Position numbers and translations under genes: made by a program | The notes under the pieces: generated by a model | Database searches by the model: none | What the model saw: the letters and a program-made list of their open reading frames with translations, nothing else | What the model was told of the DNA's origin: nothing | DNA from: Verrucomicrobiota bacterium | Lineage (GTDB): Bacteria > Verrucomicrobiota > Kiritimatiellia > SS1-B-03-39 > UBA6053 | Assembly (NCBI GenBank): GCA_020831625.1 | Contig: JAFIGD010000005.1 | Span: forward strand, 62,001-126,000 | Length of the DNA: 64,000 bases | Direction: 5' to 3' | Part shown: positions 16,636 to 22,800 of the stretch, in pieces | Numbering within the stretch: position 1 is the first letter of the stretch | Layout: each line of letters begins with the position of its first letter

Positions 16636-17831
16636 GCAAGACCCTGCCTGATGACGGTGTGATTGTGGTGGACAACATGAGCAAGGCGTTCCGGTTGCAC
16701 CGGTCGGGTACCCGGACGGTCAAGTCGGCGGTGGTGGATCTGGTGAAGCGGCGCGGGGCCGGAAAGAATATGTTCTGGGCGCTGCGGGATGTGTCGTTTT
16801 CGGTGGGGAAGGGCGAGACGCTGGGCATTGTGGGGGCGAACGGGGCGGGGAAGAGCACGCTGCTTTCGCTGCTGGCCGGAACCAAAACCCCCACCAAAGG
16901 CTCGATCCGCACGCAGGGAACCATTTCCTCCCTGCTCGAACTGGGCGCGGGCTTCCATCCGGATCTGACCGGCCGCGAAAATGTCTATTTGGCGGGCGCG
17001 ATCATGGGGCTGAGCCGCAAACAGATGCGGGAGCGGTTTGACGCAATTGTGGAATTCGCCGGGATGGGTGAGTTTATTGATCAGCCGGTGAAACATTATT
17101 CCTCGGGGATGTATGTGCGGCTGGGCTTCGCGGTTTCGGTGGAGGTGGATCCGGATATTCTGCTGATTGACGAGGTGCTGGCGGTCGGGGATGACAATTT
17201 TCAGAAGAAGTGTCTGGCGAAAATCGAGGCCTTTCGGAAGCTGGGCAAGACGATGCTGATTATTTCGCACGATCTGGGGACGATTCAGTCGATCAGTGAC
17301 CGGATTCTGTTTCTGGACGAGGGGCGCGTGGCCGGGATCGGGGATCCGCATGAGACGATCGGCGGGTACCGGGCCCTGTCGCGGGCGCGGCAGACACAGG
17401 GGCATGAACGGGAGTGGGGCACCGGCGAGGCCCGGATAGATGATGTGGTGTTTGAGAACGGGGAGGGCCGGGCGACCGACACCTTCGCCTCCGGCGGCGC
17501 GGTCCGTTGCCGGATCCGGTACACGGCCCGGAAGCGTATTGAGGATCCGGTGTTCGGGTTTTCGCTTTCTCAGGCGGACACGCGGCTGGTGTTCGGCAGC
17601 AATACCCAGGTGGAGAGTGTGAGGATCGATGCAATTGAAGGAAAAGGCGAGCTGGTGCTCACCTTGAAGGAACTGCCGGTGGCGGCGGGAAATTATCTGT
17701 TTTCCTTCTCGCTGCATTCTTCGGACCACCGTGAGAATTATCACCGGCTGGATTACGCTTTTTCGATCACGGTGCTCAGTGAGGCCCGTTTTGAGGGCGT
17801 TTGCAGGATTCCCTGCTCCTGGGAGATCTAA
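16632..17831 (+). CDS. wzt: Polysaccharide ABC exporter, ATP-binding protein with C-terminal glycan-binding-like domain
   Basis: The 399-residue protein has an ABC ATPase at residues about 10-250. Walker A is GANGAGKST, the signature is HYSSGMYVRL, Walker B is DILLIDEV, and the switch His is in IISHD. The remaining ~135 residues form a beta-rich domain (DDVVFENGEG...TFASGGAVRCRIRYTA...) like the Wzt C-terminal domain, which recognises the chain end of certain O-antigens. This suggests export of a finished, chain-capped polymer. Translation begins at a GTG inside the permease stop. The antiporter gene starts two bases after its stop, so all three may share one transcript. Confidence 0.92.
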   Translation: MSKTLPDDGVIVVDNMSKAFRLHRSGTRTVKSAVVDLVKRRGAGKNMFWALRDVSFSVGKGETLGIVGANGAGKSTLLSLLAGTKTPTKGSIRTQGTISSLLELGAGFHPDLTGRENVYLAGAIMGLSRKQMRERFDAIVEFAGMGEFIDQPVKHYSSGMYVRLGFAVSVEVDPDILLIDEVLAVGDDNFQKKCLAKIEAFRKLGKTMLIISHDLGTIQSISDRILFLDEGRVAGIGDPHETIGGYRALSRARQTQGHEREWGTGEARIDDVVFENGEGRATDTFASGGAVRCRIRYTARKRIEDPVFGFSLSQADTRLVFGSNTQVESVRIDAIEGKGELVLTLKELPVAAGNYLFSFSLHSSDHRENYHRLDYAFSITVLSEARFEGVCRIPCSWEI

Positions 17832-17833
17832 TC

Positions 17834-20020
17834 ATGAGGAAAAGCCCCGGCGTTTGGCTTGCGGTTCTCGTCGGGATGTTCAGGACGGTGGCCATGGCTT
17901 CGGGCGGCACGGCGGACGGGGGCTTCGTGATGACCGAACATATGATGATTCTGGTGCTGGAACTCGGGGTGATTCTGTTCGCGGCCAAACTCGGGGGACT
18001 TTTGTTCAACCGGCTGAATCAACCGGGGGTGCTGGGGGAATTGCTGAGCGGGGTGCTGATCGGGCCTTTCGCGCTGGGCGGTTTGGCCTTTCCCGGATTT
18101 GAGGCGGGTTTGTTTCCCTTGCCGCCCGAGGGGGGCGCGGTGTCGCCGGAACTGTACGCGTTCGGGTCGGTGGCGGCGGTGATCCTGCTGTTTGATGTGG
18201 GATTGGAAACGGACCTGAAGCTTTTGATCCGCTACTCGGCCGCCGGAAGTCTGGTGGGGGCGGGCGGGGTGCTGGTTTCGTTTTTTGCCGGGGCGGGCAT
18301 TACGGCGGGCCTGTCGGGGATGCTGCTGGGCATGCCGTTTTCAATCGTTCATCCGGTGGCGCTGTTCATGGGAGTGGTGTCCACGGCCACGTCGGTCGGG
18401 ATTACGGCGAGGGTGCTCTCGGAAAAGCGGAAACTTGATTCGCCGGAGGGCGTGACCATCCTGTCGGCGGCGGTGGTGGATGATGTGATCGGGATTATCC
18501 TGTTGGCGGTGGTTCTGGGCATGGTGGCCTCGGGCGCGGCGGGAGGCGAGGTGGACTGGGGCCGCGTGGGGATGATCGGATTGAAGGCGCTGGGGGTTTG
18601 GCTGCTGGCGACCCTTGCGGGAATCGCGGCCTCGCGGCATATCAGCGGCGCGTTGAAGCGGTTGAAGGATCCCACCGGCATGGCGGTGCTGGCGCTGGGT
18701 CTGGCGCTGTTGCTGGCGGGGATTTTTGAACATGCGGGGCTGGCCATGATTATCGGGGCGTATGTGACCGGTCTGTCGCTGTCTCAGACGGACATCAGCC
18801 ATGTTGTGCGCGAAAAACTGCAGCCGGTGTACGCGTTTTTGGTGCCGGTGTTCTTTTGCATCACGGGAATGATGATCGATGTGAACACCCTGTTTTCCGC
18901 TCCGGTATTGAGTTTCGGGCTGGTGTTCACGCTGGTGGCGTTTTTGTCGAAACTGCTGGGATGCGGTCTGCCGGCCCTGATGGCGAATTTCAACCTGCGC
19001 GGAGCCTGCCGGATTGGCGTGGGTATGATGCCCCGCGGAGAGGTGGGGTTGATTGTGGCGGGGATCGGAACCAACGCGGCGCTGATGCCCGGCGGGGCTC
19101 CGCTGCCGGACACGCTGTTCGCCTCGGTGGTGCTGATGGTGATGCTGAGCACGCTGCTGGCCCCTCCGCTGCTGGCCCGGTTGCTGGCGGAAGGAGGGGC
19201 GGGCACCCGGATAGAACCGTCTCCGGACCAGAGCCGGGTTCCGCTGGAAATGAATCTTCCTTCGGAACAGATGGCGGATTTTTTTGTGCAAAAGCTGCTG
19301 GCTGAATTTGAGGAGGAGGGCTTTTTCTGGCATCGGTTGGACCGCGAAAACCATCTGTATCAACTCCGGAAAGACGAGGTGATTATTGATTTTCAGCGGA
19401 TTGAGACGGCGCTGGTGTTTCACGGATCCTCATCGGATCTGGTTCTGGTGCGCGGGGTGCTGCTGGAGGCCGGGGCCAGTTTGGAGGATGCACTGCGGGG
19501 GATGCGTCGCCCCTTTGACACGCGGGCGCTTGGGCATGAGTTTTTATTTAACAGCGACACAACCGGCCTGCCCAAGCGGTTTCAGCTCGGACAGGTGCTT
19601 ACCCCGGACCGGATTGTGCCGGAACTGAAAGGACGGACAAAGGCCGAGGTGGTGGATGAGTTACTGCAGGTGCTGGTGGCAAAAGGAGATCTTTCGGATT
19701 TGAGTGCGGGCCGGGCCGCGATCTGGGAGCGGGAGGGCAAGATGTCCACGGCGCTGGAGGCGGGGGTTGCGATTCCGCACGGGAAAACGGACGCGGTGGG
19801 ACGTCTGGTTTGTGTGATGGGGGTGAGTCCGGACGGTATTGACGCCGCATCGCTGGACGGGGCGCTCTCTCATTATTTTGTGCTGACCCTGTCGCCAAAA
19901 TCAAAACCCGCGCCGCATATTCAGTTTATGGCGGCGGTCAGTCAGGCTTTGAACACGGAAAGGCGTTTGAAAATTCTCCAGGAGAAGACCGCCGAAGGGA
20001 TTCATGCGGTTTTGGTGTGA
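17834..20020 (+). CDS. CPA2-type cation/proton antiporter fused to a PTS EIIA domain
   Basis: At 728 residues this is much longer than a plain antiporter. Residues 1-20 could be a signal-like helix. Residues about 35-445 hold 12 or so hydrophobic helices of the Na+/H+ exchanger (CPA2/KefB-like) fold, with VVDDVIGIILLAVVLG carrying the paired Asp of the ion site. A linker of about 150 residues follows. The last ~150 residues are an EIIA domain of the fructose/Ntr class: WEREGKMSTALEAGVAIPHGKT has the phospho-acceptor His at residue 649. Phosphorylation there could tie ion transport to PEP supply. No EI or HPr gene is in the window. Similar fusions occur in other bacteria, but their physiology is poorly known. 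Confidence 0.88.
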   Translation: MRKSPGVWLAVLVGMFRTVAMASGGTADGGFVMTEHMMILVLELGVILFAAKLGGLLFNRLNQPGVLGELLSGVLIGPFALGGLAFPGFEAGLFPLPPEGGAVSPELYAFGSVAAVILLFDVGLETDLKLLIRYSAAGSLVGAGGVLVSFFAGAGITAGLSGMLLGMPFSIVHPVALFMGVVSTATSVGITARVLSEKRKLDSPEGVTILSAAVVDDVIGIILLAVVLGMVASGAAGGEVDWGRVGMIGLKALGVWLLATLAGIAASRHISGALKRLKDPTGMAVLALGLALLLAGIFEHAGLAMIIGAYVTGLSLSQTDISHVVREKLQPVYAFLVPVFFCITGMMIDVNTLFSAPVLSFGLVFTLVAFLSKLLGCGLPALMANFNLRGACRIGVGMMPRGEVGLIVAGIGTNAALMPGGAPLPDTLFASVVLMVMLSTLLAPPLLARLLAEGGAGTRIEPSPDQSRVPLEMNLPSEQMADFFVQKLLAEFEEEGFFWHRLDRENHLYQLRKDEVIIDFQRIETALVFHGSSSDLVLVRGVLLEAGASLEDALRGMRRPFDTRALGHEFLFNSDTTGLPKRFQLGQVLTPDRIVPELKGRTKAEVVDELLQVLVAKGDLSDLSAGRAAIWEREGKMSTALEAGVAIPHGKTDAVGRLVCVMGVSPDGIDAASLDGALSHYFVLTLSPKSKPAPHIQFMAAVSQALNTERRLKILQEKTAEGIHAVLV

Positions 20021-20128: not shown

Positions 20129-20947
20129 ATGAAATCAGCGTTTTGTCGTTTTATTGCCGTAATGTTTTCCGGTGTGCTGTTTCCGCTTTTCAGCCAGGAA
20201 AACGGGGGGGAAGGGGTGGGGTTCCGCTTGGTGGAGCCTGTCCGTCCCGCCCCCGCCCCCGCCCGCGACGCGGACCCCGCGCCCGCAGCTGCACCGGCTC
20301 CGGAACGGATTCGTTTGGACGGGAGGAATCCTGCCGCCACCGCCTCTCTGACCGCCGAAGAGCGGGCCGCGCTTCAGTTGGCGCTGGAGGGAGACGGCGT
20401 GCGGGGGCGCAGCGGCAACATGATTCTGCCCGGAATGCAGGTTGTGGTGAATGTGCTGGTTCAGGGCAAAGAGGAAATTCGCACCAATCCGCAGCGGATT
20501 AACGAATCCGGCCGGATTGCGCTGCCGCTGATTTTGAATGTCCCGGTGGCCAACATGAGCCTTGAGGAGATCGAAAACCGCCTGGCGGAACTCTACAGTG
20601 AATATTTCCGGGAGCCGCATGTGATTGTTGAGTTTATCGGCTCCACCGATGATCCCTACCTGTCCCCCTGGGGCTTTGTGACCCTGATGGGCAATGTGGC
20701 CCGCCCCGGACCTGTCGCGGTCCCGCCCACACAAAACATGACCGTCAGCGGAGCAATCAAAGCCGCGGGCGGCGAATCCTCCAGCGCAAACACCACCTCC
20801 ATCACCGTGTTTCGCCCGAATTTGGAGGCCAACTCCGTGGAACGCTACTCGGTGAATTTGCGGAACGTGGGCCGCCGGGGAAATCATGAGGACGACATCA
20901 CCGTTAAAGCCGGCGATGTGATTTTTATTCCGGAACGGATTTTCTGA
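20129..20947 (+). CDS. Wza-like polysaccharide export protein
   Basis: The 272-residue secreted protein has a signal peptide (residues 1-23, ending FSQEN). A Pro/Ala-rich linker (residues about 32-60) leads to a Poly_export domain: MQVVVNVLVQGKEEIRTNPQRINESGRIALP... and LEEIENRLAELYSEYFREPHVIVEF. One SLBB-type soluble ligand-binding domain follows (FVTLMGNVARPGPVAVP... to AGDVIFIPERIF). Such proteins form the outer-membrane or periplasmic channel of capsule and exopolysaccharide export. It has no lipobox and no C-terminal amphipathic helix, so it may lack the Wza outer-membrane collar. The start at 20129 has GAGG 9 bases upstream. Wzm/Wzt lie 2.3 kb upstream and could be partners. Confidence 0.85.
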   Translation: MKSAFCRFIAVMFSGVLFPLFSQENGGEGVGFRLVEPVRPAPAPARDADPAPAAAPAPERIRLDGRNPAATASLTAEERAALQLALEGDGVRGRSGNMILPGMQVVVNVLVQGKEEIRTNPQRINESGRIALPLILNVPVANMSLEEIENRLAELYSEYFREPHVIVEFIGSTDDPYLSPWGFVTLMGNVARPGPVAVPPTQNMTVSGAIKAAGGESSSANTTSITVFRPNLEANSVERYSVNLRNVGRRGNHEDDITVKAGDVIFIPERIF

Positions 20948-20948
20948 G

Positions 20949-21025
20949 TTATCCACACGGTTTCAGGGAGTTTTTTGTGATTATTGTGGACAAGGTTTCA
21001 TTTATACACAGGGGGCTGTTGATAA
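20949..21025. other. Cluster of four DnaA-box-like 9-mers
   Basis: In the 115-base gap before aroE there are two exact matches to TTATNCACA: TTATCCACA at 20949-20957 and TTATACACA at 21002-21010. Two one-mismatch boxes lie on the other strand, TTGTCCACA at 20985-20993 and TTATCAACA at 21017-21025. The stretch is AT-rich compared with its surroundings. It could be an origin, a DnaA-titration site or a DnaA-controlled promoter for aroE-pilD. No dnaA, dnaN or rpmH lies nearby. Confidence 0.5.
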
Positions 21026-21062
21026 CCTGTGCGCGGCACACAGATCGGAAGCCGGAGAGGAA

Positions 21063-21962
21063 ATGACCGACCCGGCTCCTGAAGGTCTGTCGCTGACGGG
21101 CAAAACGCGGGTTTTCGCGGTTTTGGGGCATCCGGTGGCGCACACCATGAGCCCGCCCATGCACCAGGCGGCGTTTCGGGCTTTGGGGATGGATGCGGTG
21201 TATGCCGCCTTTGATGTGGTTCCCGAAAAGCTGATGGCGGTGCTGCCCGCGATGGCGGCGATGGGATTCGGGGGCGTGAATTTAACCATCCCGCATAAAG
21301 AGGTGGCCTACAGGGGTCTTGAGGCACTGGCTCCGAGCGCGATGCGCTCGGCCTCGGTCAACACGGTTGTTTTCCGGGAAGACGGAAGCCTGGAGGGGCA
21401 CAGCACCGACGGCCACGGGTTGCGGATGGCGGTAAAGGAGGCGTTTGACACGGACTTTGCCGGGGTGACGGTGCTGCTGCTCGGATGCGGCGGCGCGGGG
21501 CGCGCGGCGGCGCGGGAGCTTGCCGAAGGGGGCGCGGTCCGTTTGGTGCTGGCGAACCGCAGTCCGGAACGGGCCCGGGGGCTGGCGGCCGAACTTTCCC
21601 GCGAGTATCCGGCGATGTTGGTGGAGGTCGCGCCGTCCTGGCCCCCGCCTCCGGAGACGGTGCAAGGCGTCGGGTTGATCCTGAACTCCACCGCTTTGGG
21701 TATGAAAGAGGGGGATTCCGCGCTGTTGACCGCGGAGCATTTGGGTTCGCACCACAAAATGCTGGATATGACCTACGTTCTGCGGGAAACGCCGATGATG
21801 GCGGCGGTGCGGGCGGCCGGAGGGCGGGCGGTCAACGGTTTGGGCATGCTGCTGCATCAGGGCGTGCGTTCTTTCGAATTGTGGACGGGGGTGCTTCCGC
21901 CGGTTGAACCTATGCGCGCCGCGTTGCGGAACGCGGTGTACGGAAAGAACGCCCATGTTTGA
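21063..21962 (+). CDS. aroE: Shikimate dehydrogenase
   Basis: AroE reduces 3-dehydroshikimate to shikimate with NADPH in aromatic amino-acid synthesis. The 299-residue protein has the substrate-binding N-terminus (FAVLGHPVAHTMSPPMHQAAF) and the catalytic Lys in GVNLTIPHKE. The partner Asp is in GHSTDGHGL. The nucleotide-binding loop GCGGAGRAAARELAEGG is followed by ANRSPERA. The NTSALG-like segment (NSTALGMKEGDSA) and C-terminal GLGMLLHQGVRSFELWTG complete the family pattern. The last eight bases overlap the start of the prepilin peptidase gene. The upstream gap has the DnaA-box cluster. Confidence 0.96.
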   Translation: MTDPAPEGLSLTGKTRVFAVLGHPVAHTMSPPMHQAAFRALGMDAVYAAFDVVPEKLMAVLPAMAAMGFGGVNLTIPHKEVAYRGLEALAPSAMRSASVNTVVFREDGSLEGHSTDGHGLRMAVKEAFDTDFAGVTVLLLGCGGAGRAAARELAEGGAVRLVLANRSPERARGLAAELSREYPAMLVEVAPSWPPPPETVQGVGLILNSTALGMKEGDSALLTAEHLGSHHKMLDMTYVLRETPMMAAVRAAGGRAVNGLGMLLHQGVRSFELWTGVLPPVEPMRAALRNAVYGKNAHV

Positions 21963-22800
21963 TGTCTACCGCGAGATGCCTCCGGAAGTCTGGCAGTCCG
22001 CTCCGGTTTTGTTGGTGGTCTGGTGTTTCGCGGCCTGCTGGGGCAGTTTCCTGAATGTTTGCATTTACCGGATACCGATGGAACTGTCGGTGGTCGCCCC
22101 GGGTTCGCATTGCTTTTCCTGTCAAAAGCCGGTGGCCTGGTACGACAACATTCCGGTGCTGAGCTGGTTTATTCTCCGGGGGAAGTGCCGGCATTGCGGT
22201 GCGGCGTTTTCGATCCGCTACGCGCTGGTCGAGGCCCTCACCGCAACCTTGTTTCTGGCGGTTTGGATGCGGTACGGACCCTCCTGGATTACGCCGGCGT
22301 ACTGGCTGATGTGTTTCGGACTGCTGCTGGGGTCCGGGGTGGATCTTGATGAAATGTGGATTCCCGACCGGGTGACCCTGGGCGGCATGATCATCGGGAT
22401 CCCGCTCAGCGCGCTGCTGCCGGAGCTGCACAGTCAGGACCTCTGGTATCAGGGACTGATCGCCTCGTGTCTCGGGGCCGCCGCAGGCTTCGGGAGCTTA
22501 TGGGCGGTGGGCAAAATCGGCACCTGGCTCTTTAAAAAAGACGCCATGGGGTTTGGCGATGTGAAGCTCATGGGCGCGCTGGGGGCGTTTTTAGGCGCAC
22601 CGGCCATTCTGTATATCGTTTTTGTGGCCGCTTTGCTCGGATCGGTTGTGGGGGTTACCCTGATTGCCTGCGGAAAAAAAGAACTGGGTGGAAAAATCCC
22701 GTTTGGACCGTATATATCCGCGGCGGCGATCAGTTGGATCTTCGGCGGTGAGCGGCTTCTGGACTGGTATCTGGAAATTTTCCGGATGCCGGTCGGCTAA
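21955..22800 (+). CDS. pilD: Prepilin peptidase / N-methyltransferase (type IV pilus or type II secretion)
   Basis: This 281-residue inner-membrane aspartic peptidase cuts and methylates type IV prepilins or pseudopilins. The N-terminal part has GSFLNVCIYRIP and two zinc-binding CxxC pairs (CFSCQKPVAWYDNIPVLSW and CRHCG), which belong to the methyltransferase domain. The catalytic Asp residues lie in GVDLDEMWIPD and in GFGDVKLMGALG, the GxGD signature of the family. About seven membrane helices are present. The start at 21955 overlaps aroE by eight bases. No pilin or secretion genes are adjacent. Confidence 0.93.
   Translation: MFDVYREMPPEVWQSAPVLLVVWCFAACWGSFLNVCIYRIPMELSVVAPGSHCFSCQKPVAWYDNIPVLSWFILRGKCRHCGAAFSIRYALVEALTATLFLAVWMRYGPSWITPAYWLMCFGLLLGSGVDLDEMWIPDRVTLGGMIIGIPLSALLPELHSQDLWYQGLIASCLGAAAGFGSLWAVGKIGTWLFKKDAMGFGDVKLMGALGAFLGAPAILYIVFVAALLGSVVGVTLIACGKKELGGKIPFGPYISAAAISWIFGGERLLDWYLEIFRMPVG

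Follow-up and report, generated by a model that had tools for sequence, protein, structure and literature searches.

A conserved cluster of DnaA-box-like sites upstream of aroE, very probably distinct from the replication origin, in a Kiritimatiellota family

The window analysed here is the whole stretch of 64,000 nucleotides from contig C59 (JAFIGD010000005.1, positions 62,001 to 126,000) of a 111-contig draft genome of 4.886 Mb (4,885,981 bases; G000). Four DnaA-box-like 9-mers in the order + - + - occupy window positions 20949-21025 (G000:C59:82949-83025), in the gap between a polysaccharide export gene and aroE. The features of the locus are as follows, with counterparts in the nearest relative (G002) and in a further family member (G008).

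20129..20947, + strand: polysaccharide export protein (Poly_export + SLBB); G002 has an orthologue upstream too
20948..21062, no strand: intergenic gap from the polysaccharide export stop to the aroE ATG, containing the cluster
20949..20957, + strand: Box 1, TTATCCACA, exact; G002 counterpart TTGTTCACA
20985..20993, - strand: Box 2, TTGTCCACA, one mismatch; G002 counterpart TTATTCACA
21002..21010, + strand: Box 3, TTATACACA, exact; G002 counterpart TTATGAACA
21017..21025, - strand: Box 4, TTATCAACA, one mismatch; G002 counterpart TTATCCACA
20985..21025, no strand: three-box module (-, N8, +, N6, -), common to G002 and, with N9, to G008 near the terminus
21063..21962, + strand: aroE, shikimate dehydrogenase (TIGR00507 above cut-off)
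21904..22800, + strand: prepilin peptidase (A24), after aroE also in G001, G002 and G005; its actual start is probably inside this ORF

The sequence-only reading had described two exact and two one-mismatch boxes of mixed orientation in a short AT-rich gap, and all four are present where it placed them. The gap is 115 bp long and 52% AT, its 77-bp core is 61% AT, and the window is ~60% GC. Both exact DnaA boxes of the whole window (n = 2) lie inside this cluster, and the 9-mer of Box 4 is also the lead box of the oriC element on contig C101. No Rfam match up to E = 1 was found in 20700-21300. Further upstream, a Na+/H+ exchanger with a PTS EIIA domain (17801-20020) sits between Wzt and the SLBB gene, with no match between the same neighbours on the G002 contig.

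Among the stretches round all 63 exact boxes (641,716 of 4,885,981 bases), the aroE site is the densest, a ranking that presupposes one or more exact TTATNCACA boxes in each cluster; the second-densest cluster is at G000:C101:6561-6745. The earlier claim that chance clustering is unlikely fared unevenly. Shuffles preserving the dinucleotides of the gap reached at least four boxes in only 1 of 20,000 cases, which supports it; permuted motifs do not, as 51 of 559 gave at least four hits within 77 bp somewhere in the same 641,716 bases (27 of 300 in a separate run), 23 of the 51 clustering outside repeat arrays. Because permuted motifs cluster as well, density by itself is weak evidence and not decisive. 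Comparison between genomes is more discriminating: in 33 kb of G000 and 18 kb of the matching G002 contig, the DnaA box clusters in the two genomes, at the orthologous gap, and not one of the 559 permuted motifs does so. A chance cluster with no function would account for the permuted-motif counts, but given the layout conserved in G002 and the module found also in G008, we consider it highly improbable. Elsewhere in the genome, a divergent pair of exact boxes lies within a gene whose product end looks PEP-CTERM-like by eye (G000:C73:132642-132666; L017); this pair is probably due to chance.

The four-box layout is strongly conserved in the nearest relative, G002 ("PVC group bacterium" T3Sed10_339R1, contig PXDP01000009.1; AroE match of 85%). 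Conservation in related genomes had been named as a point on which the earlier interpretation could fail, and it held for this relative: the orthologous gap of G002 (114 bp) carries TTGTTCACA(+), TTATTCACA(-), TTATGAACA(+) and TTATCCACA(-), so that all four boxes are kept in order, orientation and spacing, with start spacings of 35/17/15 in G002 vs 36/17/15 in G000. The two genomes agree at 29 of 36 box bases and at 43 of 75 aligned bases outside the boxes. The seven box substitutions are confined to box positions 3, 5 and 6, with none at the other 24 places, and in a substitution-only simulation at 55% identity all four boxes survived at a rate of 3e-6.

The aroE-adjacent form is restricted in distribution. 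AroE loci were returned for 56 of the 58 genomes, and among the 30 loci whose upstream DNA was read (up to 1,500 bp; 41 bp for L023), only those of G000 and G002 have the cluster. The aroE gaps of G001, G004 and G007-G010 contain no such cluster, and that of G005 contains a weak version, with two boxes within 250 bp and four mismatches to the module. A search with AroE gave 80 loci from named genomes, of which one, the G002 contig PXDP01000009.1 itself, has the cluster; the aroE-adjacent form is therefore narrow. A separate kind of array, with as many as seven TTTTCCACA boxes whose orientation alternates, was seen on Opitutia/Verrucomicrobia contigs (L242:10650-10773, L245:9761-9791), 3.8-4.7 kb from aroE.

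DnaA probably binds the boxes of the aroE gap, judging from their sequence. A full DnaA is encoded in G000 (TIGR00362, 516.8 bits), and the aroE cluster and the oriC boxes of the family use the same TTATSAACA variants (TTATCAACA, TTATGAACA). Tandem boxes 11 bp apart lie directly upstream of dnaA in G000 (C76:106187-106206, L262), G002 and G005 (L275, L264), as expected if dnaA is autoregulated. The full DnaA together with these tandem boxes therefore suggests that DnaA sites outside oriC are used in this clade. In the oriC of G001, an exact box and a box with one mismatch make a convergent pair whose starts are 15 bp apart, and other origins of the family show weaker versions of such pairs by eye. 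Another regulator with TTATNNACA half-sites, whose likeness to DnaA boxes would be coincidental, could explain the near-palindrome made up of boxes 3 and 4, with its fixed 6-bp spacer, in both G000 and G002. It is improbable, however, in view of the single locus per genome, the mixed orientation together with a further box at a distance of 27 bp, and a tolerance of letters equal to that of the family's own oriC boxes. The convergent pair with the 6-bp spacer is found at this site in G000 and G002, a single time in each, and in none of eight other family genomes; a multi-target regulator of the palindrome was disfavoured because of this single occurrence in each of the two genomes.

The replication origin very probably lies elsewhere. 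The closed genome G008 (CP120722.1, "Kiritimatiellota bacterium B12222"), from the same family as G000, shows two sign changes of its GC skew, one near 0.53 Mb, with the minimum at 528.0-528.5 kb, and one near 2.80 Mb. The minimum adjoins mnmE and mnmG, and 3 kb from it is a 380-bp gap with boxes and TTATCAACATATGAACACCCCATAAGAATAATAAGATTT, in which two boxes are followed by CCCC as the spacer and then by consecutive A-centred triplets. This layout is that of the bacterial origin unwinding system (BUS), described as DnaA boxes, a GC spacer and DnaA-trios (PMC8287927). Its core, ACATATNNACACCCCATAAGAA, was found a single time in each of 8 of the 58 genomes, every one a member of the family (8 of 11 members), with no match for a reversed control; the three family genomes without it are 85-88% complete. 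In G000 the core is at C101:6735-6756, between a GAPDH gene and a 227-aa gene that adjoins the mnmE/mnmG group. An oriC with boxes, CCCC and DnaA-trios is a family-wide observation in its own right (G000:C101:6540-6815, L114; L248-L255).

The aroE gap had been proposed as oriC, a datA-like titration site or a DnaA-controlled promoter; the first of these fails and the other two survive. We conclude with high confidence that the cluster is not oriC, because the BUS element is elsewhere and the skew does not flip at the site. G000 and G002 each have a single BUS element, in both cases away from the aroE gap, and G002 thus contains both this origin element and the aroE cluster. In G000 and G002 alike, the run of DnaA-trios next to a box at the aroE site is at most two trios long, vs six at C101 and five in G008, by a counting rule wider than the published 3'-GAT-5' consensus. 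The cumulative-skew check went against an origin here as well: the skew of C59 stays positive across the site (C59:83-84 kb; +0.18 before, +0.09 after), with the G008 minimum at the BUS locus. The neighbourhood of the origin is also on other contigs, with mnmE, mnmG and BUS on C101 and dnaA on C76, and aroE of G008 is ~1.6 Mb from the G008 origin. The GC skew of C101 is weak and marks no origin by itself. A denser cluster beside dnaA with the skew minimum there had been named as a refutation; a rival box cluster does exist, with the minimum there in G008, but beside mnmE/mnmG and not dnaA. The densest packing round any exact box of the genome and a gap AT-richer than its surroundings speak for a replication origin (oriC or a second origin) at this site; against the BUS and skew evidence, such an origin is scarcely credible.

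Two other origin markers were set aside. The DNA adjacent to dnaA was rejected as an origin, as no cluster of at least three boxes within 150 bp was found in C76:1-120000. ParB was not useful, its best hits being on C32 in G000 and at 2.995 Mb in G008, away from the origin. The skew of G000:C59:40000-88000 jumps from ~-0.06 to ~+0.36 at 40-44 kb and decays to ~+0.06 by 88 kb, and a similar +0.3 block is present in G008 at ~606-640 kb.

The three-box module recurs in a second genus, away from aroE. Pair searches in 10 family genomes identified TTATCCACA(-), TTACGCACA(+) and TTATTAACA(-) at G008:2,868,095, with start spacings of 18 and 15 bp vs 17 and 15 in G000 and G002. Among the 22 distinct three-box sets within 60 bp in the 3.04 Mb of DNA examined (redundancy included), only those of G000, G002 and G008 have the order and spacing of the module. 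A module pattern, written after these three members had been seen, matches them with zero mismatches, and the closest further matches, each with four mismatches, are in the G001 origin and the aroE gap of G005, when overlapping re-readings of the G000, G002 and G008 sites are disregarded. In G008 the cluster lies between a small zinc-ribbon/coiled-coil gene (X), which comes first, and rpsT; both genes were named by eye. Five box-like sites were observed in ~130 bp downstream of the zinc-ribbon gene (L277:1501-1629; G008:C1:2868095-2868223).

The G005 genome offers a connection between the two settings. There, gene X (68% identity to X of G008) comes first, next TCATCAACA-N6-TGTTGATAA and one more box, and finally aroE. 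As far as X, G005:C9:48.9-63.1 kb and G008:2,854-2,868 kb are collinear. The order X, cluster, aroE therefore joins the arrangements of G008 and G000. The simplest reading of these sequences would be that an ancestral cluster outlived the loss of either neighbour; four genomes bear on this reading, and the G005 link in it is weak. Placement of C59 onto G008 failed, with only 6 of 107 C59 ORFs matching the G008 DNA examined (E<=1e-20, >=38% identity). The six include the direct upstream neighbour of the cluster, whose match in G008 (45%) lies ~18 kb away from the cluster there; as a positional link this match is suggestive only.

On the G008 chromosome the module sits near the skew maximum, on the terminus side: its distance to the origin is 2.34 Mb in one direction and 2.10 Mb in the opposite one, which puts it ~53% of the way round from oriC. 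No dif-like site was found in the window, and no good one in C59 or in the G008 terminus stretch. In two other family members, G001:C277 (L271:1501-1590) and G009:C168 (L265:1501-1590), a tandem box pair is ~50 bp from a site that we take to be dif-like from its likeness to E. coli dif. This site has the same 27 bases in both, ACGTCGCATAATATATATTATGTATAA, and the GC skew nearby turns from + to -. Tandem boxes beside such sites would be in keeping with a broader connection of DnaA to the terminus in the family. A speculative extension, which we think unlikely to hold, is an ancestral stand-alone DnaA-control element (gene X, three-box module, aroE) common to two or more genera of the family. 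Located on the terminus side, it would act on DnaA towards the end of the replication cycle and would differ in this from clusters near the origin.

For the aroE cluster itself, we lean towards a conserved DnaA-box cluster outside the origin that would hold or modify DnaA as a stand-alone element; the stand-alone role, taken separately, is put forward tentatively, as a little short of an even call. A stand-alone function is preferred because the same module occurs in a second genus (G008) away from aroE. DnaA would bind the four boxes, whose spacing and conservation are described above, and the -,+,- module would probably seed a small cooperative DnaA complex. Such a complex could hold DnaA (titration) or shift its nucleotide state in the manner of datA or DARS, with no start of replication, and any aroE promoter in the gap would be occluded incidentally. 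Control of transcription may instead be the function, with bound DnaA repressing or activating the aroE-prepilin peptidase operon in step with the replication cycle. The boxes occupy 77 of the 115 bp directly before aroE, leaving little space for an unblocked promoter; dnaA here has upstream tandem boxes, and B. subtilis DnaA regulates several operons via DnaA boxes (PMC4447404). A scan of 20800-21200 for promoters and terminators, covering one promoter type, returned no sigma-70-like sites and nothing else, and the G008 module without aroE and the box-free aroE of most family members also tell against promoter control, which we give a modest chance of being right.

The analysis provides a concrete, testable set of candidate DnaA sites, comprising an origin, the dnaA upstream region and a non-origin cluster, for a phylum little studied in replication control. 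Among the papers searched, none joins Kiritimatiell*, DnaA and "origin of replication", and the origin element and the second conserved site therefore appear to be undescribed in that literature. The results also raise the question of whether non-origin DnaA clusters persist through gene rearrangement.

Several known systems resemble the aroE cluster in part. The family oriC with BUS uses the same box variants, and that of G001 shares the convergent pair with starts 15 bp apart, but this oriC has a DnaA-trio run, which is absent at the aroE site. The DnaA-box clusters (DBCs) of B. subtilis likewise have several boxes packed in short non-oriC stretches, and deleting six of them together leads to early initiation (PMC5295017); DnaA in that organism also regulates operons from non-origin sites (PMC4447404). 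The aroE cluster has the at least three DnaA boxes in a short non-origin stretch that define a DBC, in another phylum and another gene context and with DnaA binding predicted. E. coli datA is likewise a compact non-coding box cluster outside oriC with conserved spacing (PMC4585315); it has five boxes vs four here and a required IHF-binding site between boxes that is needed for ATP hydrolysis by DnaA. E. coli DARS1 and DARS2, described as stimulating ADP release from DnaA, have a three-box core with conserved spacing (PMC4585315), and the aroE module too has three boxes at conserved spacing, a resemblance in box number and in the keeping of the spacing; DARS2 is described as needing IHF and Fis sites, and DARS1 a flank. 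Taken together, we read the cluster as a real, conserved, non-origin DnaA-box cluster of the datA, DARS and B. subtilis DBC kind.
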